Shown piece by piece: positions 1 to 64,000 of a stretch of 64,000 nt of DNA. Within the stretch, counting starts at the first letter, position 1; each line of letters begins with the position of its first letter. Source of the DNA: Porphyra umbilicalis (Eukaryota > Rhodophyta > Bangiophyceae > Bangiales > Bangiaceae); contig KV918855.1 of the NCBI GenBank assembly GCA_002049455.2, forward strand, positions 1 to 64,000, read 5' to 3'. The notes under the pieces were generated by a model that saw nothing but the letters and a program-made list of their open reading frames with translations, made no database searches and had not been told where the DNA came from. Both the position numbers and the translations under genes were made by a program.

Positions 1-840
1 ACGGGCGTCGTTGCCGCCGCGCAGCGACTGGGTGCCGCCGGCTGGGCGGATCCCTCGTCAAGCGGGCGGCGGCGACGGACGGCATCCGACAGGCGGGGGA
101 CCGCCGCCTGGAGGCGTGAACGGCGGCGGGCCGCGAGACCAAGGTCAACTCCTGCCGCAAGACGTGAGCGCGCCGCCGGCTCGCGGCTGTCTGCCGCTCG
201 CCGGCGGCAGGTGCGCGCCGCCGCCAGACGGTGTGCCGCCTCAAGGCGGCGGCCAATCGCGTGGGGGCGAGGCACGGGCGGCGTTGCCGCCGCCGGCTAA
301 TCGTGTTTTGCCACAAGCCGGCGGCGACCCCACACCTTCCGGGGCCTCCCGGCGCGAAGGCGGTGGCTCGCAGGCGCCGCCGCCAGCCAACGGGCCGTCT
401 GAAGCCGGCGGGGAGTCGGCACCGCCGGCTGCAGATCAACCGCAAGACGGCGACGCGCAGCCCTCACCCGCCGAATGCCGGCCGCCGGCAGCCGCCATGC
501 ACCCCCCGCCCGTCCCGACGTTGAGTCCAGGGGCTCCGGGGGGGGCGTCGGCGGACACGCCGGCGGCGGGCCACGACACGCCGGCGGGCCACGACAAGTC
601 AGCGGGCCACGACCAGCCGGCGGGCCAGGACCAGCCGGCGGACCAGGACCAGCCGGCGGGCCAGGACAAGCCGGCGGGCCAGGACAAGCCGGCGGGCCAG
701 GACAAGCCGGCGGGCCAGGAGAAGCCGGCGGGCCAGGACAAGCCGGCGGCAGCGACGGGCACGCCGCCGCCGGTGCACAAGTAGTGGACGTTGACGCCGT
801 CGGCTGTGGCGTTGCTGCGCCGACGTACGCACCCCCACCG
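1..840. other. GC-rich leader region before the Myb-like ORF
   Basis: Very GC-rich DNA dense in CCGCCGGCG-type triplets. Several frames on both strands are open because the triplets lack stop codons, so none is supported as a gene. One plus frame, continuous with the Myb-like ORF, is open from 475 and could be an N-terminal extension rich in Gly and Pro. The left end of the first Harbinger element was not found here and may lie outside the window. Confidence 0.5.
555..749. repeat. 18-bp tandem repeat (minisatellite)
   Basis: About ten copies of an 18-bp unit, GCCGGCGGGCCAGGACAA with variants. Because 18 is a multiple of three, every frame stays open. In the frame leading into the Myb-like ORF it reads as a repeated Gly-Gly-Pro-Gly-Gln-Ala. 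In another frame it reads as Pro-Ala-Gly-Gln-Asp-Lys. Which frame, if any, is translated cannot be decided. Confidence 0.8.
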
Positions 841-2154
841 ATGGGGACTGGGCTGGGGTGGACGGATGCGGAACGTGTGGCGCTGTGTAAGGCGTACTTA
901 AGCACGTCCCTGGACCCCGTCAAGGGGGCGGACCAGAGTGGGCCGACATTTTGGGCCTCGGTCGTGGCGGCATGGAAGGGGCTGCTGGCGGGGCGCCCTG
1001 GCGTCCGCCGGCGCACTGAGCGCGGCGTGGGGGGGGTGCAGAAGCAGTGGGACAAGATCCGCAAGGGCGTGAACGAGTTTGGCTCCCACTACATGGCGGT
1101 CAAGCGCATGGAGCTGACGGGCAACCCAAGTGACGAGGACATGATCAGCGCTGCGATGGCGCGCTTCTGTGGCGCCAATGTGTACGAGGCGATACGCAAG
1201 GACCGCACGGCGGACAAGGCCAAGGGCAAGGCGACCAAGCGCAAGGCCAAGCAAGTGCACTACCCGTGGGTCCCGTGCTGGCGGGTGCTGCGGCACGTCG
1301 ACAAGTTCAGCGTGGCCGCCGGGGCCGCCGCAGCCGACGGCGGCGCCGCCGGTGCCGGATCAGCCGGCGGCTCTCCCGGCGGCCGCTCGACAAGCGACCC
1401 TGACGAGGACGGAGAGGACGCGGGTGCTGGTGGCTACCAGTCGCGCCCGCGTGGTGTGAAGGCCGCCAAGCGTGACAAGGCGGCGGGCATCCAGGAGTCG
1501 CGTATGTTCAAGGCGAGCACCGACGCGCTGTCCGCGCTGGCGCAAGCAACGGCGGAGCGCACGACCGTGGCTTTTTTTAACTCGGCCGAGATGCGCGACA
1601 CGCCGGAAGCTGTCGCGTTTCGACGCGCGCATGCTCGCAAGCTGATGGCGGCGGCCGGCTTGGCGCTGTCCCCGCCGGAAACTTTGTCGGAGGCGTCTCC
1701 GCCGCCGGCGTCTACAGGAGATGCGCCGGCGGCAGGGGAGTCTACACCCTCCACACCCGCGCTGACATCATCGTCGACGCCGCGTATGCCGCCGGCGCAG
1801 GAGCCGCCGGCTGGCACGGCGGTGGTGCCGGCATCTACGCCGGCGGCGAGCGCCCCTGGGGGTGCGCCGCCGGCGTCTGCGGTCAAGACGACGACTGCGA
1901 CTGTGTCCTCACCGGCGGCCTCGGCCGCCGGCTCTGGTGCAGCAAGCCGTGGCCGGCGGTCGCTGTCGACAATGCAGGCCAAGGCAGCGGCGGCTCTTGC
2001 CGCTGGGTCCAAGACACTCGACGATGAGAACGATGGCATTTTTGTGGTGCCTGTTTTTCCTGTGCGCGACGATGGCGCGGATTGTTCGGAGGACCGGCAA
2101 GACGCTGAGGGGGACGACTCGAGTGATGACGATAGCAACGCGGAGTACCAGTAG
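841..2154 (+). CDS. Myb/trihelix-like DNA-binding protein, ORF1 of a PIF/Harbinger element
   Basis: Predicted protein of 437 residues from the ATG at 841; the frame is open back to 475 through the 18-bp repeat, so the true start is uncertain. Residues about 5-125 look like the Myb/SANT or NAM-associated trihelix-like domain of plant-type PIF/Harbinger ORF1 proteins: W7, then a CKAYLSTSLDPVKGADQ stretch, W38, W45 and W70, with basic residues after each helix. A Lys/Arg-rich linker (about 119-138) and a YPWVPCWRVL motif follow. The rest is Ala/Pro/Ser-rich, ending in an acidic tail. In the family such proteins bind the element's ends and help the transposase enter the nucleus or find its target. 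The transposase gene lies 417 bp downstream on the opposite strand, tail to tail, supporting this role. Assignment to the family is by motif recognition only. Confidence 0.65.
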   Translation: MGTGLGWTDAERVALCKAYLSTSLDPVKGADQSGPTFWASVVAAWKGLLAGRPGVRRRTERGVGGVQKQWDKIRKGVNEFGSHYMAVKRMELTGNPSDEDMISAAMARFCGANVYEAIRKDRTADKAKGKATKRKAKQVHYPWVPCWRVLRHVDKFSVAAGAAAADGGAAGAGSAGGSPGGRSTSDPDEDGEDAGAGGYQSRPRGVKAAKRDKAAGIQESRMFKASTDALSALAQATAERTTVAFFNSAEMRDTPEAVAFRRAHARKLMAAAGLALSPPETLSEASPPPASTGDAPAAGESTPSTPALTSSSTPRMPPAQEPPAGTAVVPASTPAASAPGGAPPASAVKTTTATVSSPAASAAGSGAASRGRRSLSTMQAKAAAALAAGSKTLDDENDGIFVVPVFPVRDDGADCSEDRQDAEGDDSSDDDSNAEYQ

Positions 2155-2183
2155 TGTGTAAGAGTGCGTATTGGACAGCGACT

Positions 2184-2562
2184 TCAAAGGTTTTTTTTTC
2201 CCCGTTGGGCAGGGGTTTTTTTTCCTACTTACTTCGTCTTTGCGTCCGACAGAGAGTATCCCTCTCGCGTCGGTCCCGGGTAGCTCACCACTCCAGCAGC
2301 GGCAGAGATCTGCGCGATAGCCGCAGCGCTGCTCGCCGTCACGCCGACTTTGCGCCGATGCTGAGCTGCCGTGCTGTGCCTTTCGCACGCCGCCGCCGTC
2401 GGCGCGTCAGTAACAACTGTGCGTGCGTGGCGGCGGCGGCCTTTGCGCAGGTCTACAGTACCTCTCAAAAGGCAACCAAGGCAGGCTCCACGAAACACGC
2501 TCACGAAGACACACTGATGTAAGGAAAAAAAAACCGCGAGGCGGGAAAAAAAAACCTTTGTT
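2184..2562. terminator. Matching T9-hairpin-T9 blocks after both convergent Harbinger genes
   Basis: About 30 bp after the plus-strand stop lies CAAAGG, nine Ts, a short CCCC/GGGG hairpin, nine Ts and CCT (about 2185-2222). About 10 bp after the minus-strand transposase stop, read on the minus strand, lies the same arrangement: CAAAGG, nine Ts, a CCGC/GCGG hairpin, nine Ts, CC (about 2560-2522). The two form a long inverted repeat round a spacer of roughly 300 bp in which I see no gene. Position and symmetry suggest shared 3'-end or termination signals; that role is inference. Confidence 0.5.
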
Positions 2563-2571
2563 CGTCTCTAG

Positions 2572-4722
2572 TTAAAGGTACGGCTCCAAAAGCGTTGCTC
2601 TGTCCGCCCATACGTCCTCCGCCAGGTCATGCCTCAGCTTCAGGTGCTCCTCCTCGCTCCGCGTCTCTGCCCAAGCGCCTAACGCTTGCCCAAAAGTGCC
2701 TACAGGTAGCCAGGCTACGTGTGCAATGGCGGGCGCAATGGCGGGGGGGGGATCACCGCCCCCCACAACGCCGTCCCCACCGTCCTGCATTCCCTCAGCG
2801 CCACCGCCGGCCGCCTGACCGCCGCCGGCGGCAGCGGCCGCCGCCGCAACTCCCCCAGCCCCACCACCCGCAACCAAATCGCCGCCGGCGGATCCATCAC
2901 CGCCGGCGGCGGCCGCTCCTCCATTGCCGCCGCCGGCGTTGCCGGCGGCAGCGCCGTGCATACCTCCATGTCCCGCCGCCCCCCCGCCGCCGCCGGCCGC
3001 CTGACCGCCGGCGGCGGCGGCCGCCGCCGCAACGCCCCCAGCCCCCCCACCAGCAACCAGATCGCCGCCGGCGGATCCATCACCGCCGGCGGCGGCCGCT
3101 CCTCCATTGCCGCCGCCGGCGTCACCGGCGGCAGCACCGCGCACACCACCAAGTACCGCCGCCCCGCCGCCGCCGCCGGCCGCCTGACCGCCAGCGGCGG
3201 CGGCCGCCGCCGCAACTCCCCCAGCCCCCCCACCCGCAACCAAATCGCCGCCGGCGGATCCATCACCGCCGGCGGCGGCCGCTCCTCCATTGCCGCCGCC
3301 GGCATCACCGGCGGCAGCACCGCGCACACCACCAAGTACCGCCGCCCCCCCGCCGCCGCCGGCCGCCTGACCGCCGGCGGCGCCCGCCGCCGCAACTCCC
3401 CCAGCCCCCCCGCCCATAACCAGACCACCGCCGGTGGATCCGTCACCGCCGACGGCGGCCGCTCCTCCATTGCCGCCGCCGGCGTTGCCGGCGGCGCCGC
3501 CGTGCCCACCCGCAGGCCCCGCCGCCCCGCCGCCGCCGGCCGCCTGACCGCTGGCGGCCATACGGGTGCGGGACACATACACGTCGCGTCGCTTCTTGGT
3601 GACCATGTTGTGCAGGATGGCCACCGCCTTAGTGACGGTGACCATCTGCTCAACGGTGAAGTACTTTGCAGGGTGCAAAGCCACATGAAAACGTGCCGTA
3701 AGCACGGCATACAGTCGTTCGACATCTTTCCGCAGGGCTTCTTGAAGTCGGTTAAATGTAACCTCTACTTCTGTCGTGGGGTTAGGAAACGGAGAGACGA
3801 AAAACGCGAACCGAGGATAAATACCATCCACAAGATAATACAGGAGCGTGCGGGTCGTGCCGTTAGCAGTGTAAGAAAATGTACGGGGCGGCCATTCTCC
3901 GTTCGTAACGGATAAATAGAGGGGGGAAACATGCATAACGTTCAGGTCGTTGTGAGATCCAGGACACCCCACAAATAAATGCCAAATCCAGAGGTCCTCA
4001 TCACAAACGGTCTCCATCACCACGGAACGCTTCCCGTGGCGATTCTGGTACATGCCAGCGAACGCCTTGGGGCAGTTGCGCCACTCCCAGTGGCTGCAGT
4101 CAAGGGAGCCCATGCAACCGGGCATCCCGCGCTCAGCATTACGCGTCAGAATGCGCTGCAGTTCTTCAGGGGTGGGGGGACGCAAATATGAGGGTCCAAA
4201 CTCATTCACAATAAAGCGCATCAACTCTCGCACCGACATAGCAATAGTTGAAGCGGACAGTCGCACATATTCATCAGTCCTGTCCGGCGCCTCCCCATAC
4301 GCAATGACTCGAAAAGCCGCAACCACCTTTTGCAAGGGGTGAGCCTGGAGCCGGCCAGTCGCATTGATGCGCTGCGCAAAAAACGGTCGGTCCTTCACGG
4401 CATTGTATATACGAAGAAACACGCTGCGCGGCACGCGGAACCGACGCTCAAAGTCACCCTCGTTGTAGACAGGCGGCTCCCCATTGAGACCAAAATAATC
4501 TCTCAGAATAGCACGCAAACCTGAGCGGAAGTTACGCCGCTTATTCGGCCGGCGGCCCGGCACAGATCCAACATAACGCGGCCGCCGGTGCACCCGAGAC
4601 GCACGGGCACGCTTCCGCCAATGACGCAACGCGTGTAGGTGCGCCGCAACCGCCGAAGCAATTTGTAGGTCCTCCGTATCCTCCAGCATCGCGTCTGCGG
4701 ACAAATCAAAAGGGTCGTCCAT
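2572..4722 (-). CDS. PIF/Harbinger DDE transposase with a Gly/Ala repeat tail
   Basis: Predicted protein of 716 residues from the ATG at 4722; the frame is open to 5049, but the upstream part looks non-coding. The core matches the plant-type Harbinger transposase domain. D208 sits in GSLDCSHWEW, D259 in GCPGSHNDLNVMH and E335 in RKDVERLYAVLTARF, all three catalytic positions being present. YYLVDGIYPRFAFF and AILHNMV motifs are also typical. The enzyme would cut and paste the element using its terminal inverted repeats. From about residue 390 the sequence is an unusual 300-residue Gly/Ala tail encoded by a 183-bp tandem repeat. The Myb-like ORF1 faces it tail to tail. Nothing in the core is visibly broken, so the gene may still be functional, but the right-hand TIR was not located. 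Confidence 0.85.
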   Translation of the reverse strand: MDDPFDLSADAMLEDTEDLQIASAVAAHLHALRHWRKRARASRVHRRPRYVGSVPGRRPNKRRNFRSGLRAILRDYFGLNGEPPVYNEGDFERRFRVPRSVFLRIYNAVKDRPFFAQRINATGRLQAHPLQKVVAAFRVIAYGEAPDRTDEYVRLSASTIAMSVRELMRFIVNEFGPSYLRPPTPEELQRILTRNAERGMPGCMGSLDCSHWEWRNCPKAFAGMYQNRHGKRSVVMETVCDEDLWIWHLFVGCPGSHNDLNVMHVSPLYLSVTNGEWPPRTFSYTANGTTRTLLYYLVDGIYPRFAFFVSPFPNPTTEVEVTFNRLQEALRKDVERLYAVLTARFHVALHPAKYFTVEQMVTVTKAVAILHNMVTKKRRDVYVSRTRMAASGQAAGGGGAAGPAGGHGGAAGNAGGGNGGAAAVGGDGSTGGGLVMGGGAGGVAAAGAAGGQAAGGGGGAAVLGGVRGAAAGDAGGGNGGAAAAGGDGSAGGDLVAGGGAGGVAAAAAAAGGQAAGGGGGAAVLGGVRGAAAGDAGGGNGGAAAAGGDGSAGGDLVAGGGAGGVAAAAAAAGGQAAGGGGGAAGHGGMHGAAAGNAGGGNGGAAAAGGDGSAGGDLVAGGGAGGVAAAAAAAGGGQAAGGGAEGMQDGGDGVVGGGDPPPAIAPAIAHVAWLPVGTFGQALGAWAETRSEEEHLKLRHDLAEDVWADRATLLEPYL
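2826..3552. repeat. 183-bp minisatellite inside the transposase gene
   Basis: Four tandem units can be followed by a BamHI site (GGATCC) at 2890, 3073, 3256 and 3436, giving periods of 183, 183 and 180 bp. The unit is a multiple of three, so it adds 61 Gly/Ala-rich residues per copy to the C-terminus of the transposase. The middle units are almost identical, suggesting recent expansion. Confidence 0.9.
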
Positions 4723-5692
4723 CGCGCAAAGAAGACGGTCGCCACGACGGTGGCGGCGGACGGCCGTCGACGACGACGGCGCCGCGCTGACGGTGCCACC
4801 TGCACTCGGATCTCCCCAGCACCCCACAGTGAACACACCGCACAGACAGAGCAGATTTCCTTTCGCCCGCCCCCCCGGCAGACCGTTCCAATGCCCCCCG
4901 CTGGACCCCCGAAACGGTCGCATCCCGGGGTGGAGGCACGGTCGCCTGTGGTCGCGTGCTCGATGCGACGGTCCGTAGCAGTCGCGATACCGTTGCAAAC
5001 GGTGAGCGCTCGAACGCTCTCCCGCGACACAAAGTGCATGGTTTGTCACTGCAGTTTTCTAAAAAGCCGGATGCCACGACACAAGCACTTGGAACGGCGG
5101 CCAAAGCAGCGCCAGCCAATGAGAGAGCTGAACAAGATGGGGAGGAGAGCTCCGACTCCCCGAATCGTGCAGAGAATGGGGGACAAGGGCCTCACCCCCC
5201 ATTTTCTGCCCGCTGAATCTGTGTGTACTTATGTGATTCCGATCAACTAGATTCGCGTTTTCTCTCTTCGATTTCGGGTGCCCGTCGTTGCTGTGGAGCC
5301 GTCCCCAACCCCAAGAGCCTAAACTGAGCCACGTGGAGCATTCGGGAGACACGTTTCTGACACGTATACACATTCGGACTTGGGGAAGACGTTGTTGGGT
5401 GTGCTCTAAGGCGTGTTTAATCTGTGTTTTGGGCGTGTCGAGGCGAGATAAAGCCAGCCTTGGCTCAGCGGCGATTTGCCGCCAAGGAGGGTTGGCATTT
5501 GGGAGGGTGGAATGGGGGATGCGAATGGATAATATATCCTGTACTGTATTTCATGGAGACTTACTATCACCTGAGATTTCGCTACTTTGAAACGGGGCCA
5601 ATATCATTTTACTCGATACGCAGCCGTTGATTCCGTTGGGCTGGGCATTTGACAGGGATGGGCCATCGACGCTGCCGCGCCATGCATGCCGG
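4723..5692. other. Upstream region of the first Harbinger transposase
   Basis: No gene is supported here. The stretch 4723-5049 is an open extension of the transposase frame without a recognised domain. From about 5060 the DNA loses the GCC triplet pattern. The right end of the first Harbinger element should lie in this region, but no TIR partner could be identified without its left end. Confidence 0.4.
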
Positions 5693-5695
5693 TCA

Positions 5696-5714
5696 GGGTC
5701 GTTCCGCACCGGGC
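5696..5714 (+). repeat. Left TIR of the second Harbinger element
   Basis: Sequence GGGTCGTTCCGCACCGGGC, preceded by TCA. It is the exact reverse complement of 12573-12591. Confidence 0.9.
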
Positions 5715-6054
5715 TCTTTTGCCAGTATCGCGGTATGCGGTATACGGTATCGCTCAGCCATTGGCCACAGCTGGCCACGTTGACAACGTGTGGGCGGCCC
5801 GATACCGAGCCCGCGATCGAAGATGGGGGGTTGGTGAATCGCGGGACGCATAGAGAATAGGGCTTTGAGCCCCACTGATTTGGTGAAATTAATTGAAAGG
5901 GACTTGAGTGCTTTCTGTTGAGTGAATTCCATTCCGGGATCTCCGGAAGGTGCACACCGGCGGCGCTTCTCGAAAAAGAGAAGCGCTCCGACTGCCACCC
6001 GTAGATCCCTGGCCCCCGCGTGCGCTCACCACGAGCTGTTTGCGTCTCCTAAGT

Positions 6055-7332
6055 ATGTCTTCATCTGCCTCCCGCGAGGCAGCCGGCGTGCCAACAACGA
6101 TGGCGTCCCAGAACGCGTTGGCGGCTGCCGCTGTTGCGGCCTCGATTGACTCTCTTCCTCCTACTGGTTCGGCCGCGGCGGACCGGCCGCCGCAGCTCGC
6201 GGCTGTTCAGGATTCTGCGGCAGATGTCCACGCCGCGCTGCTGCGCGTCTACACTCGCGAGCAGCTCAAGGAGATTTGCAAGGCAGCCGATGTTCCTGTT
6301 TGCGGGGTGAAGCTGTCGCTTGCCAAGCGCTTAGTGAGCGACGTGACCGCTCAAAACCTTTGCAACATTATCCCCAACTTGCAGGCTTCCTCCAGCGGAT
6401 TGTTTCCGTCGTCACCAGTTTTTCTTTCGAACAACTGCTTGCATGTGCTGCCTACCCGCGCCAGCGTGGCAGGCAGCGCGGGTGGGGCACCCGCGCAGCC
6501 TCCGTTTGACCTCGACGAGTACGCCAGGATGGTCCACGTGCTCAGCGAGTCGAGCGTGCAAGACGCCTTGTCGGCACACAAAAATCACCGATCGCGCTCC
6601 GAGCTGGAAGCGCCCCCGCCCGACCCTTGGATCTCCCACGTCGGCAAGCTGTACAACGACAACGACTACGCGCCCGACGCTGTCACCAACGCGCCGCTGT
6701 CGATTTTGATGGCCGTTCCGACCGTGTTGCCGCGCGAGCGGCCGCCGGCCTTCCTCAAGGTCAAATGGGCCGACCTCCGCCGCATTTTTTGCGTGGCGTA
6801 CAAGTGGTACACCAAGTGCGGCAACAACCAGCCGGCCATTGGACAGCAGGTGCGTGAGTTTGAGGACTGCATTCCTGATGATGTGTCACCTCTGCTCCGT
6901 CAGGCCACAGAGTACGCCTGGTGCGTCTTTCAAATCAACCCCGACCTGCTCGGCAAGTGGCCTCGCAACCTGCCGGACGATGCCGCCTTCGAGGCCGGGG
7001 GTGGCGGGGGGTCGGGGATCGACAGGACGTCGCCGGCGCGGGGCCGCAAGCGTGCCGCCCCGGCGCACGAGCAGGTCCTCGACGGCATTGACAGGCGCCT
7101 CGAGGCCATTTTGGGCGACAACAAGAACGAGGCACAGCAAAATGCCGACCAGCTGGACACCCTCACCAAGGTGGCGAAGCAGATGGACGGACTGTCGCCC
7201 TCTTTGAAGAGCACCAAGCTTCTGCATCAAATTTGGAAGCAGCAGGCCACAACGCTCCTGAAGACGAGCGGGGCACCGGTAGATGAGACTGACGAAGACG
7301 TGCAAGAGTACTGGGGGGCTACCGAGACATAG
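6055..7332 (+). CDS. SAP-domain protein, putative accessory ORF of the second Harbinger element
   Basis: Predicted protein of 425 residues starting at the ATG at 6055, in a frame open from 5950. Residues about 62-97 (LLRVYTREQLKEICKAADV, then a Gly-x-Lys and KRLV) fit the two-helix SAP DNA-binding motif. The middle part (about 190-310) has many Trp, Tyr and Phe residues and looks globular but is not recognised. After a Gly-rich linker and a basic RGRKR stretch, residues about 335-405 form a probable helical or coiled-coil segment. The gene lies inside the element bounded by TIRs, upstream of the convergent transposase, where PIF/Harbinger elements usually carry a Myb-like ORF. I infer it replaces that partner. 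No Myb signature is visible. Confidence 0.6.
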   Translation: MSSSASREAAGVPTTMASQNALAAAAVAASIDSLPPTGSAAADRPPQLAAVQDSAADVHAALLRVYTREQLKEICKAADVPVCGVKLSLAKRLVSDVTAQNLCNIIPNLQASSSGLFPSSPVFLSNNCLHVLPTRASVAGSAGGAPAQPPFDLDEYARMVHVLSESSVQDALSAHKNHRSRSELEAPPPDPWISHVGKLYNDNDYAPDAVTNAPLSILMAVPTVLPRERPPAFLKVKWADLRRIFCVAYKWYTKCGNNQPAIGQQVREFEDCIPDDVSPLLRQATEYAWCVFQINPDLLGKWPRNLPDDAAFEAGGGGGSGIDRTSPARGRKRAAPAHEQVLDGIDRRLEAILGDNKNEAQQNADQLDTLTKVAKQMDGLSPSLKSTKLLHQIWKQQATTLLKTSGAPVDETDEDVQEYWGATET

Positions 7333-7484
7333 AGCCTCGCGCGAGGAGACTTCGTTGTTGTAGTAAACGGCTTGGCGCACGGGTAAATGCCACCGTGAGG
7401 ACATAAGAAAACCTCCCACTCACACCCACAAATGCTTGCCCCTACTGTCAAGCAGGACAAGAAGGCCGCTGCGAAACCAAGAAA
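7333..7484. other. Spacer between the SAP ORF and the palindrome
   Basis: Short non-coding spacer. A small perfect hairpin (CCTCGCGCGAGG) lies just after the SAP ORF stop; no T-tract follows it. Confidence 0.4.
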
Positions 7485-9072
7485 TGGACAAGGCGGCGCG
7501 CCACCATGCACTTGTCAGGGCACAAGGGCACAAAGCACCCATTTGTCACAAACAAAGCCATTGTTTCTTGCCTACCCACTAGCAGTATGCCTTCACCGGC
7601 TCTCTCGCCCACGCACTGTCAACGCCCCGACCACGTCTCGCCTAAAACCCGGCCACGCCCCACCGACAACCCACACAAGCGCCGTCAGAGCCCCGACCAC
7701 GCACCACCTACAACCCACGCACGCGCCGTCCGCGCCCCGACAACGCCCCACCCGCAACCCGACCACGTGCCGTCAGCGCCCCGACCACGCGCCACCCGCA
7801 ACCCGACAACGCCCCGCCCGCAGCCCGACCACGCCCCGCCCACATCCCGCCCGCGCCCCGCTAAAGACCCTGCCGACGCCTCGTAGACGCCCCGACGACG
7901 CCCCACGCACGTCCCGCCAGCGCCCCGCCAACCGCCCAAACAGACAAACCGAATGTGCAACCTGACTAGAGAGAGACACAGCAGCCACGGGAGCGAGTAA
8001 ACAGTGCTTTATTTCCCCTGTTCCTGTACCAGTACGCAAGACAGAGAGATAGGGGTGGTTGTAGCAACAAGACGAAGCGAGAATTGGTCGGGGAGAGGCG
8101 GGTAAGGTTGCAGGCATCACAAAGGAAGGTAGAGTGGACAAGAAAAGTCAACTGGGAAATGGGCACGGGCAGGGAGAACGGGAGGAGGGGCGCTCGGACT
8201 GGTCAGGTACGCGTTACTGAGCAAGCAGTCGGCCGTTCGTGCCAAAGTGCGTTCACAGGGCGGCTCACTGACATCAGACCATTCTGTTAGCTCGTGCCTG
8301 GTCGGACGACGTGCCCGTCACAGCTGAGCCCCGAGTCCGTTGCTGAGCATCGCAAACCGTCCGCGGAGGACCACTTACATAACAAAAACGACAGAGTGAA
8401 AGAAGGCCGGGGAGCACACTGGATGCGCTCTCTGAGACACGACAAGAATCACTGCCGTGCACGCAGACGGTGAAACCGGCCCCCGACGGAGTTGCGACCG
8501 TACCTACCCAGGGATGGAAAGGGCGAGTAGCTTCGGCGATGAATCCGAATCGTGGCACGACGGTGAGGGCCAGAGCCGATGCGCACGTGTGCGGTAGAGG
8601 CTGGACAGGCGGCGTGTGTGACGACTACGGAGAAGCAGCAGCGGCCCGTTGGGCGCCTCCAAGTCGGTCGGAGCCGGCTGGTGCGGTGCGCACCGCGGCC
8701 TCGGAAAACAGTGGCCCGGCTGGGCGGATTGGGCGGTGGGTGGGGGCACCGCAGCGAATGTGGCGCGGTCGAAGAAACAGTGGCCTGACTGGTCGGATTG
8801 CGGGGGGGGCTCACGCAGGCATTCTGGGCGGGGTGGCGGAAAATTGGGTGCTAGAGCAGCCACGGAAGCCGGCGGCAGCGCACGGCACGTGGTGACGATG
8901 CGTACCCGCGTGACGATGTGTGGCACAGGGCCATTTGGCCAAAAAGGGCAATATCCCATTCGCTCTCACGGCGAGCACTTTCAGTTCCAGCCTGCACCAC
9001 CCGTGGGAATCGATGCCGCGTGGCCTGGAGCGGCGCGATTGCAGCTGTCAGCTTCGATGTGATCGCGTTCCG
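7485..9072 (+). repeat. Left arm of the 3.3-kb palindrome
   Basis: This 1.59-kb arm is the near-exact reverse complement of 9214-10803. Mirror positions add to 18,287 over most of the arm, with one slip in a G run (eight Gs near 8810, nine Cs near 9480) and one near the outer end. Only a few base differences were seen. Peptides read from both arms are identical over long stretches. It holds a minisatellite at about 7615-7935 and no recognisable gene. Confidence 0.92.
7615..7935. repeat. CGCCCCGACCACG minisatellite, left arm
   Basis: Short degenerate tandem units built on CGCCCCGACCACGC and CACCCGCAACCCGAC. They translate to Pro/Arg/Thr-rich strings in every frame, which explains the open frames here. 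The mirror copy is at about 10352-10672. Confidence 0.8.
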
Positions 9073-9213
9073 ATGCTTGCGTGCACGTTTGCCATTCGGT
9101 ACTGTCATGCAGAGTTTTGAGGAATTCAATGAACAAAGCTTGTCCAATGGTGCCAGCCAGATCACCGCAACAGAGTGGCCTTTGGCATCAAACACGGCCA
9201 GAAAACAGACCCA
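9073..9213. other. 141-bp spacer at the centre of the palindrome
   Basis: Unique, less GC-rich DNA separating the two arms. No gene or motif recognised. In RNA form it would be the loop of a very long hairpin. Confidence 0.85.
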
Positions 9214-10803
9214 CGGAACGCGATCACATCGAAGCTGACAGCTGAAATCGCGCCGCTCCAGACCACGCGGCATCGATTCCCACGGGTGGTGCAGGCTGGA
9301 ACTGAAAGTGCTCGCCGTGAGAGCGAATGGGATATTGCCCTTTTTGGCCAAATGGCCCTGTGCCACACATCGTCACGCGGGTACGCATCGTCACCACGTG
9401 CCGTGCGCTGCCGCCGGCTTCCGTGGCTGCTCTAGCACCCAATTTTCCGCCACCCCGCCCAGAATGCCTGCGTGAGCCCCCCCCCGCAATCCGACCAGTC
9501 AGGCCACTGTTTCTTCGACCGCGCCACATTCGCTGCGGTGCCCCCACCCACCGCCCAATCCGCCCAGCCGGGCCACTGTTTTCCGAGGCCGCGGTGCGCA
9601 CCGCACCAGCCGGCTCCGACCGACTTGGAGGCGCCCAACGGGCCGCTGCTGCTTCTCCGTAGTCGTCACACACGCCGCCTGTCCAGCCTCTACCGCACAC
9701 GTGCGCATCGGCTCTGGCCCTCACCGTCGTGCCACGATTCGGATTCATCGCCGAAGCTACTCGCCCTTTCCATCCCTGGGTAGGTACGGTCGCAACTCCG
9801 TCGGGGGCCGGTTTCACCGTCTGCGTGCACGGCAGTGATTCTTGTCGTGTCTCAGAGAGCGCATCCAGTGTGCTCCCCGGCCTTCTTTCACTCTGTCGTT
9901 TTTGTTATGTAAGTGGTCCTCCGCGGACGGTTTGCGATGCTCAGCAACGGACTCGGGGCTCAGCTGTGACGGGCACGTCGTCCGACCAGGCACGAGCTAA
10001 CAGAATGGTCTGATGTCAGTGAGCCGCCCTGTGAACGCACTTTGGCACGAACGGCCGACTGCTTGCTCAGTAACGCGTACCTGACCAGTCCGAGCGCCCC
10101 TCCTCCCGTTCTCCCTGCCCGTGCCCATTTCCCAGTTGACTTTTCTTGTCCACTCTACCTTCCTTTGTGATGCCTGCAACCTTACCCGCCTCTCCCCGAC
10201 CAATTCTCGCTTCGTCTTGTTGCTACAACCACCCCTATCTCTCTGTCTTGCGTACTGGTACAGGAACAGGGGAAATAAAGCACTGTTTACTCGCTCCCGT
10301 GGCTGCTGTGTCTCTCTCTAGTCAGGTTGCACATTCGGTTTGTCTGTTTGGGCGGTTGGCGGGGCGCTGGCGGGACGTGCGTGGGGCGTCGTCGGGGCGT
10401 CTACGAGGCGTCGGCAGGGTCTTTAGCGGGGCGCGGGCGGGATGTGGGCGGGGCGTGGTCGGGCTGCGGGCGGGGCGTTGTCGGGTTGCGGGTGGCGCGT
10501 GGTCGGGGCGCTGACGGCACGTGGTCGGGTTGCGGGTGGGGCGTTGTCGGGGCGCGGACGGCGCGTGCGTGGGTTGTAGGTGGTGCGTGGTCGGGGCTCT
10601 GACGGCGCTTGTGTGGGTTGTCGGTGGGGCGTGGCCGGGTTTTAGGCGAGACGTGGTCGGGGCGTTGACAGTGCGTGGGCGAGAGAGCCGGTGAAGGCAT
10701 ACTGCTAGTGGGTAGGTAAGAAACAATGGCTTTGTTTGTGACAAACGGGTGCTTTGTGCCCTTGTGCCCTGACAAGTGCATGGTGACGCGCCGCTCTGTC
10801 CAT
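9214..10803 (-). repeat. Right arm of the 3.3-kb palindrome
   Basis: Reverse complement of 7485-9072. The outer boundary lies near GGCGCG...ATGGACA-type sequence shared with the left arm; beyond it the two flanks differ. The minisatellite reappears at about 10352-10672. Confidence 0.92.
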
Positions 10804-10999
10804 TTGTCAGTTTGTAAGTGGTATATCAGTGTCACTGGGCAGTATGAGCTGTGAATCACAGAGTGGCTGTGGGAAAGGAAGGCAGTTATCTCTGTGACCG
10901 CGGCAATAGGCATGCTTCTAGTTGTCCTTATATACGATGGAGTCTCCAATCCCCAGGCTCACAATGACTTGGTGTGTGGGGTGCTTATTGCAAAATTTA
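10804..10999. other. Region between the palindrome and the transposase stop
   Basis: No gene seen. It would hold the 3' end of the minus-strand transposase transcript; no clear polyadenylation signal was identified. Confidence 0.4.
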
Positions 11000-12187
11000 T
11001 CACTCAGGCCGTGACGTCGCACTCGTGCGGCGCACGGGGGGACGAACATGCCCGGCGCGGCAAAGGCGAGTGGTCCACTCCACACGCCTGAGACACTCCC
11101 TGCGCTCACGTTCATTGAAGTCTCCGTCGCAGGTCGCCTGCTCACCGGTGTCGACCAGGTCTGCTGGGGTACCGTGACCGGCAGGCACGTTGGTCGCGCT
11201 GGCACCGCCGTGGTCGATGGTAAAGTTGTGCAACTTCATGAGCGCCCCCACGAGGTTTCCGCAATCCGCCAAAGGCGCACGCAAAGCACGCCACAGCACT
11301 CCCCACCGTGCATTCAAAATGCCAAACGACCTCTCAATGGTCTGTCGTACCTGGCTAAGGAAAAAGTTAAAGGCATCCTTGGACAATGGCAGGCCTTGCC
11401 CCGCCAATGGGCACAGCAGGTAGTTTCGCACCGAGTAGGCGTCGTCACCGACGAGGAAGCGGTTGCCGTAGAGGATCTCATTGAGCTCCAGGCGCCGCGA
11501 CAGGGTGGTCAACGACCACGCAAAGCTGTCGTGCATCGAGCCGGGAGCCGCCTTGTTGACAAAAATGAAGCGACAGGCGCCGTCACAAACCGCCTGGACG
11601 TTGAGGCTGAAGAACCCTTTGCGCCCGTAGAAGTCGGCGGGCGCGTCGGTCTCCCGAGCCCGCGGACCGCGGATGCGGACCGCGAGGCCGTCGACTGCGC
11701 CGAGGACAAAGCACGCAAGCGGGTTACGCGGGCGTGCCTCAGAGAAGGACCTCGAAAGACGCTCTCGACCCTCCTCCGTCTCTAGGTCCGACGTAAAGTC
11801 GAGGTGCTCGTGGATGGCCGAGGTGACGCGTTTTGCAATGTCGTAAAAAGTTGATACTTGTATCTTGTGGGAGGCCGTAATATCGAGGTAGGATCCGCCT
11901 GCGAAAAAACGTAGAGCCATCGCCACCTGCGTCTCGGGGCATACTGCTCTGGCCGCTCCGCTGCCGCGCCCGTGTCGGCGCCGTGCTTGAATCTCGTTCC
12001 GCTCGAGACTCCCTCGCAGCACCAATAGTAGCTTCGTGAAAACAGGGTACGACATCCTGTACTTGCGGTGGAAAAGAGGGCCCAGCGCAGCCACTTCGTC
12101 TGCCCAAATGAGGCGCTCATACGCCAAATCGCGCTCGCGAGCCTGCACATGCAGGCCCAGCTTCGACCGCGCCAGCACAAGCGCCAA
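11000..12187 (-). CDS. PIF/Harbinger DDE transposase (HARBI1-like)
   Basis: Predicted protein of 395 residues. The DDE_Tnp_4 core is complete: D166 in GAVDGLAVRIRG, D220 in APGSMHDSFAW and E285 in VRQTIERSFGILNARWG. The FYGRKGFFSLNVQAV stretch and FLVGDDAYSVRNYLL are also characteristic of Harbinger nucleases. An N-terminal helical region (about 85-135) resembles the helix-turn-helix of the family. It catalyses excision and insertion of the enclosing element, whose TIRs lie at 5696 and 12573. The start at 12187 gives the full core; a further N-terminal piece could exist in another frame (open up to 12459), so an upstream frameshift or intron is possible. No stop or missing catalytic residue was seen. 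Confidence 0.88.
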   Translation of the reverse strand: MALVLARSKLGLHVQARERDLAYERLIWADEVAALGPLFHRKYRMSYPVFTKLLLVLRGSLERNEIQARRRHGRGSGAARAVCPETQVAMALRFFAGGSYLDITASHKIQVSTFYDIAKRVTSAIHEHLDFTSDLETEEGRERLSRSFSEARPRNPLACFVLGAVDGLAVRIRGPRARETDAPADFYGRKGFFSLNVQAVCDGACRFIFVNKAAPGSMHDSFAWSLTTLSRRLELNEILYGNRFLVGDDAYSVRNYLLCPLAGQGLPLSKDAFNFFLSQVRQTIERSFGILNARWGVLWRALRAPLADCGNLVGALMKLHNFTIDHGGASATNVPAGHGTPADLVDTGEQATCDGDFNERERRECLRRVEWTTRLCRAGHVRPPVRRTSATSRPE

Positions 12188-12572
12188 GACAACGCGTTGC
12201 TGTCTCCGACGGCGCCGCTCAATTCGCGTGGCCGAGTCGGGGCGGCCGCCCAGGTGGGGGGGGGGGGTGAAGACGACGCCATAGCTAGGACGTCGGTTGT
12301 GGGAGACCTGCTGTCTTCGTGGCTGCTGGGCAGGGGTGGCGGAAAAAGCAGGCCGGCCTCTGGGGCTGGCAAGTTGTGAGATTTGTTGAACAGTCTCTCA
12401 GGATTTAAACGTAACCGATCTACACAACTCCCTGACCAACTGTCCCCAATCCCAATCATTTGGTTCAGCTCAGTAATACCGGATCGTCTGTACGACCGGT
12501 AAACAACGGTATGTCTGGTTCTTGTTTTACCGGTACGCGGTATATTCCGCGTACCGGTCTACCGACGATACC

Positions 12573-12591
12573 GCCCGGTGCGGAACGACCC
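12573..12591 (-). repeat. Right TIR of the second Harbinger element
   Basis: Exact reverse complement of 5696-5714, followed by TCA, which completes the 3-bp target site duplication. Confidence 0.9.
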
Positions 12592-12594
12592 TCA

Positions 12595-15278: not shown

Positions 15279-15602
15279 GTCAATTCCCGGGGAATATGTG
15301 GGTGAGATCAGTCGGCCAGTAGTTGACACGGTGCGGGTGGTTCATGAAAGATCGAGAGGGTTGCAGCACATGATCCCAGCTAGGATCTTTGAGCTGATTT
15401 TCTCGCAGCGGCACTGTCCGTCCATTCGCGCCTGTGCGTGAGACAGGCGGGCGCGAATGGACGGACGTGCCGCTGCGAGAAAATCAGCTCAAATTTCCCA
15501 GCTGGGATCATCTGCTGCAACCCTCTCGATCTTTCATGAACCACCCGCACCGTGTGAACTACTGGCCGACTGATCTCACCCACATATTCCCCGGGAATTG
15601 AC
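15279..15602. mobile_element. Foldback MITE-like palindrome (324 bp)
   Basis: GTCAATTCCCGGGGAATATG at the left end is mirrored by its complement at the right end, and the whole 324 bp folds into one hairpin with a stem of about 155 bp and a loop of only a few bases near 15440. Arms differ at a handful of positions plus small indels. No ORF or clear target site duplication was found. It is a non-autonomous foldback element or a source of hairpin RNA. Confidence 0.85.
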
Positions 15603-48006: not shown

Positions 48007-48774
48007 TGTGGGGGAAACCCCCTCTCCTCTGATGACGCGGTTTCTCCGGTATCAGCCGGGGGAGGGGCCGCGAGCACACACGCAATGCCCCTCGAGGGAG
48101 CGGTGTGCGGCGCCCCTTCAGGGCGCATGCCAGGTGGAATTTGGCACCGCCCCCGAGGCTTACCTCCCCCTCCCCCAGAGGCCAAGTGCGGCAGGGCCTG
48201 ACGCGGATGAGGGGCCACTTGACCCCTCGATTCGGGCCCCCTGAAGGGGCCTGGAAGCTTGTGGAAGCTTCTTTGAAAGGGAAAGGGCCCTGAGCCATGA
48301 TTAAATCTCGTCCACTGTCGAAATCCCACAAGAACTTCTATCAGAGACTTGAGAATCCGGGGATAAGTCCCTAGTGATTAATTGGGCAATTTTAGTCCGA
48401 GCTGGCTTAAATCCAGGAACGATATCTCTCCTTCAGTGGAAGAGGATCCCTTGATCCGTGGCAGGGGCCACCAAGACCTCACATCAGGGACCGTGGCCCG
48501 CCGGGCCCCGGCCCCCCTACGACCGTCTCTTCCTGGGTCGGGATTGTGCACGTCCTACGTCTTGTTTCTGAGGGTTTATAAGTGTATGCTTTGGGGGCAT
48601 CGTGCGTACTCGAATAAATCAGCGTCGCGTTTGCGTCAGTTCCGGCGTTCTGGTGCGCTCCGCGCCCTGTGATCCAGGGGTTTGTGTTCCCTCTCCTTTG
48701 TGTCGCTCCGCATCCTGTGCTGGAATTTCTGACGGGGCGGTGCCCCATCGGCTTTTCGGGCAGAAACCAGTACA
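48007..48774 (+). repeat. 5' LTR
   Basis: Starts TGTGG and ends ACA just before the PBS. It holds a TATA-like box (TTTATAAG, 48575-48582) and a polyadenylation signal AATAAA (48613-48618), marking an R region between them. The start is placed by alignment with the 3' LTR and the flanking pentamer. Confidence 0.88.
48575..48582 (+). promoter_or_regulatory. TATA-like box in the 5' LTR
   Basis: TTTATAAG, about 31 bases before the AATAAA signal. The matching position in the 3' LTR (58176-58183) reads TTTATGAG, a mutated form. Confidence 0.55.
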
Positions 48775-48776
48775 TT

Positions 48777-48794
48777 TGGTGGATCAGCGGGGGA
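48777..48794 (+). promoter_or_regulatory. Primer binding site
   Basis: TGGTGGATCAGCGGGGGA begins two bases after the LTR end and starts with TGG, the complement of a tRNA CCA end. The second family copy on the minus strand has TGATGAATCAGCTGGGGA at the same place. The priming tRNA was not identified. Confidence 0.65.
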
Positions 48795-48951
48795 TACGGG
48801 GTTTGGCTCTTTCTGATCAGTCTGGTCGACCCTGTGTCAGTTCTTACGGTGGTCTTTCTCCTGTGCTTTGTCATACCCTTGGGTGTGACTGTTCTGTTCC
48901 GATTATCTTTGAGGATTGATTGTTTCCGCAGGAGGACGGTGTCTTCCCGCC

Positions 48952-51048
48952 ATGAACACCACTGAAGTGACGGAGACCGGTGCCCCGGAAGCCGGCAACC
49001 CGTCACGGGGCTACCGTGACAGAGCCCGCAAGGGCTCGGGGTCTCAAACCCCCGGAGGGATCCCTCCTCGGCGGGAGCGTCACGCCGGCAGCGCCACGCC
49101 AGAGCGTGGCGCGCCGAGCGACGGTGGTGGAGACGGAAGGGTATGACCGTCTCTTCCCCCCCATGGTGCGAGGGGCACAGGCGGAGGAGTATTCCCGTTT
49201 CTCCCGCCCCAAGGAGCCGGAGGTGTAGACGGAGGGATATTACTGTCTCTTCCCCCCGAAGGTGCGGAAGGCGTAGATGGAGGTGATTTCCCACCTTCTC
49301 CCCTCCAAAATGTGAAGGGTGGAGCCGGAGGGGCATTCCCGCCTCCCTTTTCTCTACCCCCGGGTAGGCGGGACCAAGCGGTCCACCGTGTTCCATGGGG
49401 ACCAAATGACGGGCGGGCGAGAGCCGCCGGCCCACCCCGAACACCTCCTCGTGGAGGTGGTGACCGGGCCCCAACGGGGGTCCAAAACGCGGCTGCCATA
49501 TCGGCAGCCCTACAGGATTCGTTGGACGCTTTGTCAAGCCCCTTACACGATCGGCTGTCTCTTATAGAGACAGCCCTCGGGACCACTAGACGGTCCTGGC
49601 GCCAGCGTCGGCGCATGAGTTCCTCCTCCTCGGACGGAGAGTACTGCGGGGGAGATGGGGGCCGCCATGAGCTGCGTCGATCGATCACTCGTGCCCTAGG
49701 GCACGAGCTGGGCGGGGTAATCCACCGTCGGATTCCCCCCAAGATCGTCCCCGCGGACGATCGCTATGCAGCAGTCTTAGATTGCGCAGCTTATGCGTTG
49801 ACGAATACCGACATCCGGTACGACCGGACCATGGCGCACGGCCTAGGCCGTCTGCGCAAGGGTGTATCGGCCACTTTTAGCCGTGACGCAGAGTGGGATG
49901 GGATGCCCGCCTTAGTCGTCTTCGAATTCTTCAGCCGCTTCGTAAAAGCGGGTGATGACAACGATGTCTCGGAGGGCCGGGCTCTGTATCTCCTTCCCGA
50001 GTTCAGTAAGGGTACCCTCAAGCGGGAGTTGTATACGATCATGCCGTCCCTCCAAGGAGGGCGGAGTGCAGAGGTCAGCTCCTACGTGGAATTGATCAAC
50101 TGGCTCCTCCGCAAATACGCGGATGAGCAGTCGCTAAGCGACCAAGATGCCCTGTTCCATTGGGCCGCCCAAGGGGCGGATAAAACAGAGAATGATCACT
50201 ACGTACACCTTCCGGGTTTACGTCGCCTTTGTATTTTTATTCACTTGGAAGGACAAATGGATAGTCGCTATATGCACGGGCTTGGTTGGGAGACTTGCGC
50301 CGATGTGCGCGAACATAATACCGATAACATGCCAATGGACCTGCTGGTACAATACGCCCAGCGGAAGGGGGACTTCTGTCGTAGACGCCTCCAGGAACAA
50401 AAGGATGAAGAGGACCGACGGGCCGAGGCCCGTCGGGTACGTCGCGCTGCCCGGCCAGCGCCGCGGAAATGCGCAACCGCGGCAGTAACAGCCCCACCTC
50501 AGGTGGGAAAAGTTCCTTTGGGTCCTTCCCGATGGGGCCCGCCTGAGGTGGGGGAGGCGGATCCCTCCCGAAGGGACCCCCCGAAAGTTGGTGAAGCAGG
50601 TCCATCCCGATAGGGCCCCCCTCAGGTGAATGAGGTCCCTCACGGCCAGACCCAATGGGCTTCCGCTAAGGTGGGGGAAGGGCCTCGAGGGTCTTCCCCG
50701 CGAACCTCCACCAAAGTGAGGGAAGCGCCACCTGGTCCTCCCCGGGGAGAAGCGGGTCGTCCCGGGCGACCCGGGACGAATAACTGTCTCGCATTTAACA
50801 TGCGGGGGCATTTCTTCAGTGAGTGTCCCCGCCTTGACGCGATGACAAAGGCTCTGTTGACCAAAGACTTTATGGAGCGGTGCCAGCAGCGCCGCAAGAC
50901 GGCGGTGGAGATCCGTAAAGGACAACCGGTCGCGGCGGTGAGGGAACATTATGGTCCCTCGTGGTCGTCTTCGGATGACTCAACCTCCCCAGGGACGGAT
51001 GCGGCCGAGCAGGACGAGGAGGACAACTCCCCCTCGGGAAACGAGTAG
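48952..51048 (+). pseudogene. gag: gag with two in-frame stops
   Basis: One frame runs from the ATG at 48952 to the TAG at 51046 (about 698 codons), broken by TGA at 49144-49146 and TAG at 50611-50613. The second family copy conserves the same frame. After a short head come 15-residue Gly/Val/Phe/Pro repeats (GGVFPFLPPQGAG-like, 49150-49340). The capsid-like core spans about 49480-50400 (ALGTTRRSWRQRRRMSSSSS, then VPADDRYAAVLDCAAYALTN and FSRFVKAGDDNDV). About 14-residue repeats with GPPEVGEAD-like words follow, then a zinc-knuckle-like CLAFNMRGHFFSEC in which the second Cys is Phe. The tail is acidic. Gag would form the particle and bind RNA. Confidence 0.82.
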
Positions 51049-60559: not shown

Positions 60560-61391
60560 TGTTTTCAGCAAAACCCCATGGTATGGACATGCGTGTCGTG
60601 CTTGGTCTTTCCAAGCTCCTTCGTCATCATGTCCGCAACCGTGTCGTCCAATCCACCATTCTCCCTTTCACCTTGTCCTTCGTGATGGTATGGCGCACGA
60701 AGTGGTAGCGTATGTCGATGTGCTTGGTGCGCTTGTGCCCTACGTGGTTCTTGGAGAAGTCAATGCACCCGCTGTTGTCGACCTTGATGTTGATCGGCGC
60801 GCCCGAGATCGCTGTCTGCAGCCTCTGAGATGCCAAGCTTTGCAGGAGCTTGTACAGCCGAACATCATCCTTGCTGGCCTGACACAGAGCAATATAATTG
60901 GCCTTCATCGTCGACAGCGCCACCGTCTTCTGCAACTTAGAACCCCAGCTGACGGCTGCTCCGCCAAAGATGAAGGGGAAGCTCGTCGAAGAACGTCGCC
61001 TCTCGTGGTCACCCGCCCAGTTGGAATCACTTAAGCCTTGAAGAACTCAGGAAGAGTTCTTGACGAAGACCAGCCTCTTGTCCATCGAACCTTTGACATA
61101 CCGTAAAAGGCGCTTGATCGCCGCCCAATGCTCCTTGCCGTAGTACAAGACAGACTGACTCAGCTTCCTGATGGCGAAGGCGATGTCAGGACGCGTCCCG
61201 GCCGTCAGGTACATAAGACTGCCGACGGCTTTGCGGTTAGGCAGCGCATCGTCGCTCTCGTAGCCCTTAACCAGCTGCAGGCCTTCCTCCAGCGGCGTTC
61301 CGATCCTGGTGCACACGGCCATCCCGAACGTGTCCAGCACTTGCGCAGCGTATTTGACCTGCGACGTCGTTTCGCGATTGCTCGTCCGCAT
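60560..61391 (-). pseudogene. pol: Ty1/copia pol fragment (RT end and RNase H)
   Basis: Minus strand. 61391-61047 reads as the end of a copia RT domain (QVLDTFGMAVCTRIGTPLEE, VGSLMYLTAGTRPDIAFAI, EHWAAIKRLLRYVKGSMDK). After a TGA at 61047 the same frame enters RNase H (LQGLSDSNWAGD, KTVALSTMKANYIALCQASK, DNSGCIDFSKN, HKRTKHIDIRYHFVRH). A frameshift near 60640 leads to the usual copia end (VADMMTKELGKTKHDTH). No LTR, protease or integrase of this element was found, so it is a truncated insertion. It joins the gypsy gag copy directly at about 61388. Confidence 0.88.
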
Positions 61392-61651
61392 ATTTGCGGA
61401 GAAGCCAATTTATCAGTTCCAATTAGGAGCTGACCGTACCGCTCCGCGCTCCTAGGAGGGACGGCATGATCGTATACAACTCTTGCTTGGGATGAACCTT
61501 AGTGAACTCGGACATCATTGTCGCCACCCGCTTTTACGAAGCGGCTGCGGAATTTGAAGACGCCTAAGGCGGGCGTCGCATCCCACTGTGCGTCACGACC
61601 AAAGGTGGCCGATATGTCCTTAAGCAGACGGCAAAGGCCGTTCGTCATCGT
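61388..61651 (-). pseudogene. gag: gag fragment, second part
   Basis: Matches the capsid-like region of the first copy: DISATFGRDAQWDATPALGV, FKFRSRFVKAGGDNDV, then DNA matching up to the 'Tyr-Ala-Asp-Glu-Gln' codons at about 61388, where copia sequence begins. Part of the segment is deleted or frame-shifted near 61450-61500. Confidence 0.85.
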
Positions 61652-62797
61652 CACGGCCGGCAGAATCCCAATCCGCCCCCATCCAGAGCCTATCCGTATC
61701 CAAAACTCTGATGGATGGGCGTTTTTGTCGTCTATGAGCGCCCCCCGATTCCCCATCCAGAGATTTACCGGGATGGGCTTCCTCGACCGAGGCCAGTCAA
61801 AAGTCACCGCACTCTTGTGCAGCACAGCCGTTTCTTTCCGGCCCTGGTCACGTCCGCGGAAAACTCACGCCATTGCATCAGGCCAGCATCATTTCTACTC
61901 TTCTGCCGGACCATTGCAAACTGTAGTCCCCGTACTGCTCCCATCTGGTCCGTCTGCTCAGCGGCGTCCGCGGCATGAGGTCGACCCTTGCTTTTCTGCG
62001 ATACAACTCCTATATTTCTCAGTACTTGACATTCAAATCTTATAGATTGTGCCCACCCCGTCGACGTCACGACCAGACCAGCGGTCGTCGTGTTCACGCG
62101 GGCAGACAGCGACAGAAGATGACCTTGCCTCCAAAATTGCGATAAGTCGGTGACATCGCGAAACGCCGTGCTCCACTTTGCGCTCCGCTATTCTCTTTGA
62201 GAGTGCAAAACATGAGTCTCTTGCACAGCGTGTTGTACGACTGCCTGGAACGCCCGACTCCCGCAAGGACGCCCGCTCGAGCAACGCGGCACTGGACTCA
62301 CGAACGCTGTAGCTCTGCTTCCGCCGCGATTTCACCTCGTCGGATTCGGAGGCAGTCGTGAGGACGGCCCGCTCCAACCGAGGCCTGTGCAATTGGTATG
62401 CTTTGGAACAGAATACCTATACTTTCAGAAGAGCAATTTGATTGGCCCAAACTGCTGCGCGGTGTGGCCAAACCACGTGCGACTGGTAGCCAATGACACG
62501 GCCTTTTGGTTTCACACCAGGTTTCCGATAACGAAACGGCCGAGCCTGCAGAGGATCACACTGTGTCTTTCGAAACGGCCACCTCGACACGAAGGACTCC
62601 CGGGTAGAACTGCGGACCACTCCGTCCGCGCAAAACGGCCATCCGAAGCCCATCCAAAGCCCAGCGATATCCGATCCAAAATCTGTTGGATGGGCTTGGA
62701 TGAGCAGGAGGAGACCATCCGTCAACAACCAAAGAGTGACGATGCAGCATCGAAGGTCCATCTAAACACCGTTTGAATGGGGATTCTGCCGGCCGTG
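61652..62797. mobile_element. 1,146-bp element with 18-bp TIRs inserted in gag
   Basis: CACGGCCGGCAGAATCCC at 61652-61669 is mirrored exactly at 62780-62797. The flanks are two halves of one gag sequence, which shows it is an insertion. GGATGGGC/GCCCATCC words recur just inside both ends. No transposase is visible, so it is non-autonomous or of an unknown type. A CAT triplet near both ends might be a 3-bp target duplication, but the exact edges are uncertain. Confidence 0.8.
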
Positions 62798-63770: not shown

Positions 63771-63912
63771 CATTCTTCACCGAAAACCACAGCAGCTGAA
63801 TTACACCCAAGTGTGAAACAAAGACACGGCGAAAAACAACCGTCACAATGAACACAGGGTAGGCCCGACTGATCAGAAAGGACCGAACCCTGTCCCCAGC
63901 TGATTCATCAAA
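63771..63912 (-). other. Leader of the second gypsy copy, with PBS-like site
   Basis: Minus-strand TGATGAATCAGCTGGGGA begins about two bases after the LTR end (near 63910). The leader matches that of the first copy, including a hydrophobic reading frame. Confidence 0.7.
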
Positions 63913-64000
63913 TGTAGTGGTTTCTGCCCGCAAAGCCGACAAAGCATGACCCCGTCAGAATACCCGGCACAGGATGCGGAGAGACACAAAGGAGAAAAAA
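63913..64000 (-). repeat. LTR end of the second gypsy copy, cut by the window edge
   Basis: On the minus strand, CCTTTGTGTCTCTCCGCATC leads to CTGTGCCGGG, GGGCAGAAACCACTACA and then the leader, matching the last 88 bases of the 5' LTR at 48774 with substitutions. The rest of the LTR lies beyond the window. Confidence 0.88.

Follow-up and report, generated by a model that had tools for sequence, protein, structure and literature searches.

Does the large palindrome that lies between the two genes of a transposon in Porphyra umbilicalis belong to the mobile element, or is it cargo? The question is raised by positions 5696-12591 of the 64-kb stretch of genomic DNA analyzed here (hereafter, the window), which form a complete DNA transposon in which a partner open reading frame (ORF) and a DDE transposase are convergent on a 3.34-kb palindrome (Table 1). 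The first-pass annotation had described a Harbinger element at these coordinates, with perfect 19-bp terminal inverted repeats (TIRs), TCA duplications, and a 3.3-kb palindrome, all of which were borne out by self-comparison and by other copies. It had also considered the palindrome to be either part of, or cargo in, the mobile unit. In other subfamilies, palindromes with arms of unrelated sequence were again found between this pair of genes, which supports the first of these views and leaves the second without support. The palindrome is thus a recurrent part of the element, whose form persists while its sequence does not, and gene conversion and recombination act between its arms.

The relatives were placed by means of a midpoint-rooted transposase tree of 26 rows, comprising 22 of 30 loci and four loci added later. 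Subfamilies A (that of the window copy), B, C, and D formed a clade (support 100/99), within which A was grouped with D at 89/96, which is short of the level that the tree tool regards as firm support, and no order was obtained among A+D, B, and C. The transposases of the palindrome-bearing subfamilies B and C are 51-55% identical to that of A. Subfamilies B, C, and D have related termini (GGGTC..TC..CAC), and the B member on contig C42 (C labels designate contigs) has a TGA adjoining each of its ends. In three subfamily B elements (C215, C42, and C7), the aligned arms measure 1450-1462 nt, match each other at 99.0-99.7%, and lie between convergent genes, and a partial palindrome is present in C31. 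In subfamily C, a 2.7-kb palindrome separates the two genes of C6, matching arm pieces lie approximately 6 kb apart in C14, and C66 has kept one arm, most of the second being absent. A further subfamily B palindrome (C298:23438-27411), with arms of 1593 nt that are 99.6% alike, has a transposase on both flanks, an arrangement that recombination of two elements through the palindrome could have produced.

Profiles of the A, B, and C arms gave no cross-match at E ≤ 10, whereas the two flanking genes of A and B matched with the same program at 5e-75 and 1.7e-21 (this gene control covers the A/B comparison). Plain nucleotide comparison between subfamilies matched transposase DNA alone, and translated comparison of the arms gave weak matches (best E 0.003). 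It may be that the shape of the arms, and not their sequence, is what matters. An independently mobile palindromic insert was also considered and was rejected, as matches to arm DNA were confined to copies of these elements, with a single exception, a 50-bp stretch of contig C347 matched by the C-arm query, in a search that skips very common words and scores the best candidates.

The two arms of an element resemble each other more than they resemble the arms of another element. Between C95 and C45, 29 sites have an element-specific base in both arms, as against 7 and 10 arm-to-arm mismatches over the same columns, and the arms diverge by 0.6% within an element and by 2.3-2.5% between elements. 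Both C45 arms contain a 72-bp segment that neither C95 arm has. Subfamily B behaves likewise, although less sharply (20-31 shared sites versus 4-14 mismatches). Over five elements, 43 of the 49 arm-to-arm mismatches lie within 100 bp of the outer or 50 bp of the inner arm edge, and no mismatch was found in alignment columns 100-1100 of the C6 arm. The loops of C95 and C45 are 38% identical as they stand and 92% identical when one is flipped, and the loop of C215 is inverted relative to those of both C42 and C7. The shared element-specific bases, the edge-placed mismatches, and the flipped loops are hallmarks of gene conversion between the arms, accompanied by crossing over, in both A and B. 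The same data bear on the possibility of an assembly or library artefact, in which a read would have been folded back on itself. Although missed adapters are known to give rise to palindromes, the two arms adjoin different genes, their boundaries are common to independent loci, the mismatches are concentrated at the arm edges, and loop orientation varies between loci, so that we regard such an artefact as extremely improbable.

Large palindromes are generally unstable, and five of the seven long family A copies contain a damaged one. In three of these (C2, C356, and C185), the break lies in the loop or at most 20 bp from it, which is not so in C90 and C398. An insertion of approximately 0.8 kb (L023 2769-3574) was observed in an arm of C185, and a stretch (L029 1100-2370), presumably resembling a reverse transcriptase gene, lies beside the broken arm of C398. 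The palindrome could be functionless, if an inverted duplication was formed once between the genes and the arms, as their sequence drifts, are homogenized by nothing but conversion. The strong signature of conversion and flipping, the lack of sequence conservation of the arms between subfamilies, and the survival of subfamily D without a palindrome are all in line with this scenario. However, breakage is frequent, yet the palindrome has been kept in three subfamilies at 51-55% transposase identity, and because palindromes are so often broken, this persistence would be hard to explain without selection. We therefore hold the absence of any function to be rather unlikely.

The behavior of the element as a single mobile unit was assessed genome-wide (83.8 Mb, 665 contigs; family copy counts are lower bounds). 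This genome gave ten matches to the light-harvesting domain, and for one of these, the names among the 60 of 645 PDB matches listed are mostly those of antenna proteins from algae of the red lineage. Family A occupies at least 24 places, comprising seven long copies (C95, C2, C45:263k, C185, C356, C90, and C398), 14 short derivatives, and three fragments (C96, C131, and C552). The ends of the window element are thus not fortuitous, since they are shared by other genome copies. Both ends were located in 12 copies, and 11 were used for the duplication count after exclusion of C213, the ends of which are altered. Ten of the 11 have matching 3-bp TNA duplications (TCA in five, TGA in three, TAA in one, and TTA in one), and those of C16 are mismatched. 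Queries made of joined flanks revealed empty sites for three of the 11 insertions, namely at 16 places for the window copy (five at 100% identity and the others at 98-99%), at 22 places for C45:240k (97-99%), and at four places for C105 (95-98%). For the other eight insertions, no spanning match was present among the best 40 of 951 candidates scored, a result that says little. The empty sites were found with these boundaries, which indicates that the ends are correct. As its empty site occurs at 16 places, the window copy was inserted into repeated sequence, and its insertion looks recent, because its flanks equal empty copies at 100% over 80 bp per side. Thus, the further copies and the empty sites that the first-pass annotation had named as checks were both found, the latter confirming its boundaries, and relatives have the same partner. 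These results support its proposal that the SAP-like ORF, the palindrome, and the transposase move together.

All 14 short derivatives share one internal deletion. The fullest of them, such as C45:240k, C369, and C89, retain 558 bp at the left end and 500 bp at the right, the remaining ones are further truncated or interrupted, and the palindrome is found in none. Since these derivatives sit at many sites, six of them with their own matching duplications, the palindrome would not be needed in cis for transposition, and, by the usual logic of miniature inverted-repeat transposable elements (MITEs), the transposition proteins would act in trans.

Table 1. Features of the window copy (window positions; strand given where it applies).
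Feature	Position	Strand	Observation
Left target-site duplication TCA	5693-5695		Read directly; single TCA at empty sites
Left 19-bp TIR, GGGTCGTTCCGCACCGGGC	5696-5714	+	Self-comparison; perfect pairing over 19 bp
Partner ORF, 425 aa	6055-7332	+	SAP-like stretch at residues 66-94, then conserved central domain and C-terminal part
Left palindrome arm	7474-9072	+	Starts 141 bp past the partner stop codon; contains GC-rich minisatellite
Palindrome loop, 141 nt	9073-9213		Opposite orientation in C45 versus C95
Right palindrome arm	9214-10813	-	Separated by 186 bp from the transposase stop codon
DDE transposase ORF	11000-12187	-	PF13359, E 3e-25; D166, D248, E285; open frame reaches upstream to 465 codons
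Right 19-bp TIR	12573-12591	-	Inverted match to left TIR
Right target-site duplication TCA	12592-12594		Equals left TCA
Deletion end points common to 14 short derivatives elsewhere in the genome	6252..12093		Junction 6252/12093; agree within 8 bp

The whole palindrome (7474-10813) consists of 1.6-kb arms around the loop, and a GC-rich minisatellite with an 11-bp step was observed inside each arm (7606-7932 and 10355-10690). The transposase matched PF13359 (DDE_Tnp_4) above the cut-off, and each of its three catalytic residues is conserved in at least 90% of 21 transposase sequences. A homopolymer tract upstream of its ORF (approximately 12255-12270) exists in two lengths, each in 8 of 16 copies, and places an upstream ATG in or out of frame as its length varies. 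The description of this transposase as intact therefore holds for the catalytic part and is less certain for the N-terminus, which depends on the length of the tract.

The partner had been annotated as a SAP-type protein replacing the Myb-like partner of Harbinger elements. The ORF itself is present, and it is open and ungapped in C95, C2, and C45, but its SAP-type matches in Pfam fell below the cut-off (E 0.042 and 0.1). Similar matches were found at the equivalent place in C215 (E 0.0051), C42 (0.0027 and 0.0086), and, in another frame, C14 (0.065 and 0.23), and the SAP call gains weight from this recurrence of a weak match in diverged relatives. Across subfamilies A, B, and C, the scores were 11.6-17.7 bits, below the Pfam cut-offs of 23.9 (SAP) or 26.3 (SAP_new25). 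The more distant partner relatives C310, C93, and C379 gave no SAP call in the Pfam search. As for the proposed replacement, no Myb/SANT match at E ≤ 10 was obtained in nine partner rows from eight loci, with HMMER filters that drop most matches above approximately 0.1, and the partner did not match the Myb-like ORF of a neighboring element (window 475-2154). The partner is thus not recognizably Myb-like, in accordance with the first-pass annotation, and the proposed replacement would be consistent with these searches, although the central domain of the partner may still have a very divergent Myb-like fold, a structure model built from six sequences having a mean pLDDT (predicted local distance difference test) of 31.9. 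Protein database searches returned three proteins with the partner sequence and five with its profile, none of them named, and comparison of the profile with solved structures gave nothing convincing (two histone matches, best E 0.095). Outside family A, partner relatives were found at 20 loci in the genome. At 18 of these, a transposase match in convergent orientation lies no more than 10 kb away (no more than 5 kb at 16 of them), while no such match was seen for C31 and C66 among the best 105 of 233 transposase candidates scored. The association at 18 of 20 loci indicates that partner and transposase form an old unit, and, by analogy with Ping and Harbinger, the partner would take the DNA-binding and targeting role of the Myb-like ORF1.

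The arms themselves were examined for coding potential. Codon periodicity gave z values of 0.4 for the A arm and -1.2 for the B arm, compared with 10-31 for four genes. A third, fast-evolving gene or a non-coding RNA gene, borne by each arm and hence present in two divergent copies, might account for an outward AATAAA in each A arm, for certain long open frames, such as one of 267 codons in B, and for a weak 3-periodicity of the C arm. Against this, the A and B arms are devoid of codon periodicity, the variable sites in A show no clear phase bias, single-base indels occur among copies, and the translated matches between the arms of different subfamilies are weak (see above), so that such a gene seems improbable. 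Protein-coding A and B arms are unsupported by any of these four tests, and the C arm, being weakly periodic, might still be coding.

Because the arms lie close to both stop codons (141 and 186 bp in C95, 58 and 101 bp in C215, and wider in C6), the two mRNAs would, if running on, have a 3' sequence in common, and a transcript that reads through from either gene would form a hairpin of approximately 1.5 kb. The genome encodes Argonaute (two places with a Piwi domain), and one of its open frames, 647 codons long, matches RNase III twice. The explanation that we favor, with a confidence only slightly better than even, is that of a cut-and-paste transposon of PIF/Harbinger type that moves as a unit with 3-bp TNA duplications, has a SAP-like partner, and carries a palindrome selected for its ability to fold. 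The most likely form of the selected fold would be a long hairpin RNA, produced by transcription of either gene through both arms and fed to the host Dicer/Argonaute pathway, where it could serve as a sequence-free decoy for host RNA interference (RNAi) or as a self-limiting source of small RNAs that target the two mRNAs at their identical 3' ends. This hairpin-RNA role is plausible, if somewhat short of an even chance, and the remainder of the explanation, taken apart from it, is very probable. More tentatively, and with clearly less confidence, the palindrome may be a structure-only component, that is, a kb-scale hairpin at a shared 3' end, kept symmetric by conversion while its sequence drifts, that floods or steers host RNAi.

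Several observations weigh against the favored explanation. In subfamily D, C4 has both genes around a gap of approximately 770 bp and no palindrome, and C45:218k, in which the transposase was found and the partner was not, likewise has no palindrome, its gap being 84% alike to that of C4. Five of 12 distant pairs were examined, and there was no inverted repeat of at least 25 bp in C310, C379, C17, and C93 and none between the genes of C30. The palindrome is thus dispensable for the survival of a lineage. In addition, the C arm is weakly periodic (z 4.1), the SAP call and the role of the partner rest on weak sequence matches and analogy, and the ratio of nonsynonymous to synonymous substitution rates (dN/dS) between recent copies ranges from approximately 0.3 to 2.5, so that purifying selection is not evident at this depth and shows mainly as the protein similarity kept between subfamilies. 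The palindromes of A, B, and C could also have independent origins, if the space between convergent genes is prone to inverted duplication. This would agree with the lack of arm homology among the three and with the absence of a palindrome in D, the sister of A in the grouping below the firm-support mark. However, one gain and one loss (two steps) is shorter than three gains, and all five distant convergent pairs examined are without a palindrome; we thus consider separate origins doubtful, although they are compatible with the other readings.

The element belongs with PIF/Harbinger by its transposase, its TIRs, and the length of its duplication, and it has a second gene. The PIF/Harbinger elements Ping, Pong, and Harbinger3_DR have a DDE_Tnp_4-type transposase and short TIRs. 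These elements have two genes and a 3-bp duplication, mPing derivatives are moved in trans, and two proteins are required for transposition, with a Myb-like role of ORF1 (PMC2836001). The window element is similar in its transposase type, two genes, short TIRs, 3-bp duplications, and small derivatives, but differs in its SAP-like partner without a Myb/SANT match, its TNA duplication (TAA or TTA in two of the ten matched copies), and its central 3-kb palindrome. The fungal, TET-bearing PHISTA lineage also associates a Harbinger-type transposase with a further (third) protein without a Myb/SANT domain, but has 2-bp TA duplications and a dioxygenase gene, and its shared TET/JBP stretch is reported to have no palindromic sequence at either end (PMC12730594). 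Galileo/Foldback transposons contain long inverted repeats (PMC3688188). Those repeats are terminal, whereas the TIRs of the window element are short and its palindrome is a distinct internal feature lying between the genes. The arms of sex-chromosome palindromes are conserved through gene conversion (PMC7023750), but those palindromes are chromosomal, whereas this one lies inside a mobile element. No such layout was encountered among the papers listed on Harbinger elements with a SAP domain or a palindrome, judged by titles and the beginnings of abstracts, in a search of open papers that did not extend to Repbase.

Other repeats were observed in the window. In a second Harbinger-type element (475-5049), one ORF matches the Plant_tran transposase (E 3.3e-59) and another has a NAM-associated match below the cut-off, and the inverted-repeat scan of the 64-kb window detected no palindrome in this element. 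The only other close-spaced inverted repeats of at least 150 bp in the window measure 325 and 192 bp, the former being a self-complementary stretch (15279-15602, 93%) that is possibly a MITE. Inverted dispersed repeats at 48692-50142 and 61366-63995, which are 67-75% alike, are perhaps copies of one element.

With a palindrome between its two genes in three deeply diverged subfamilies, alike in form but with no arm sequence in common, this lineage offers a natural example of symmetry itself being the object of selection (or conversion). Through it, one could test whether transposons deploy long hairpins to counter small-RNA silencing or to act in concert with it. With its SAP-like partner, the lineage would also widen the set of partners used by Harbinger-type transposases.

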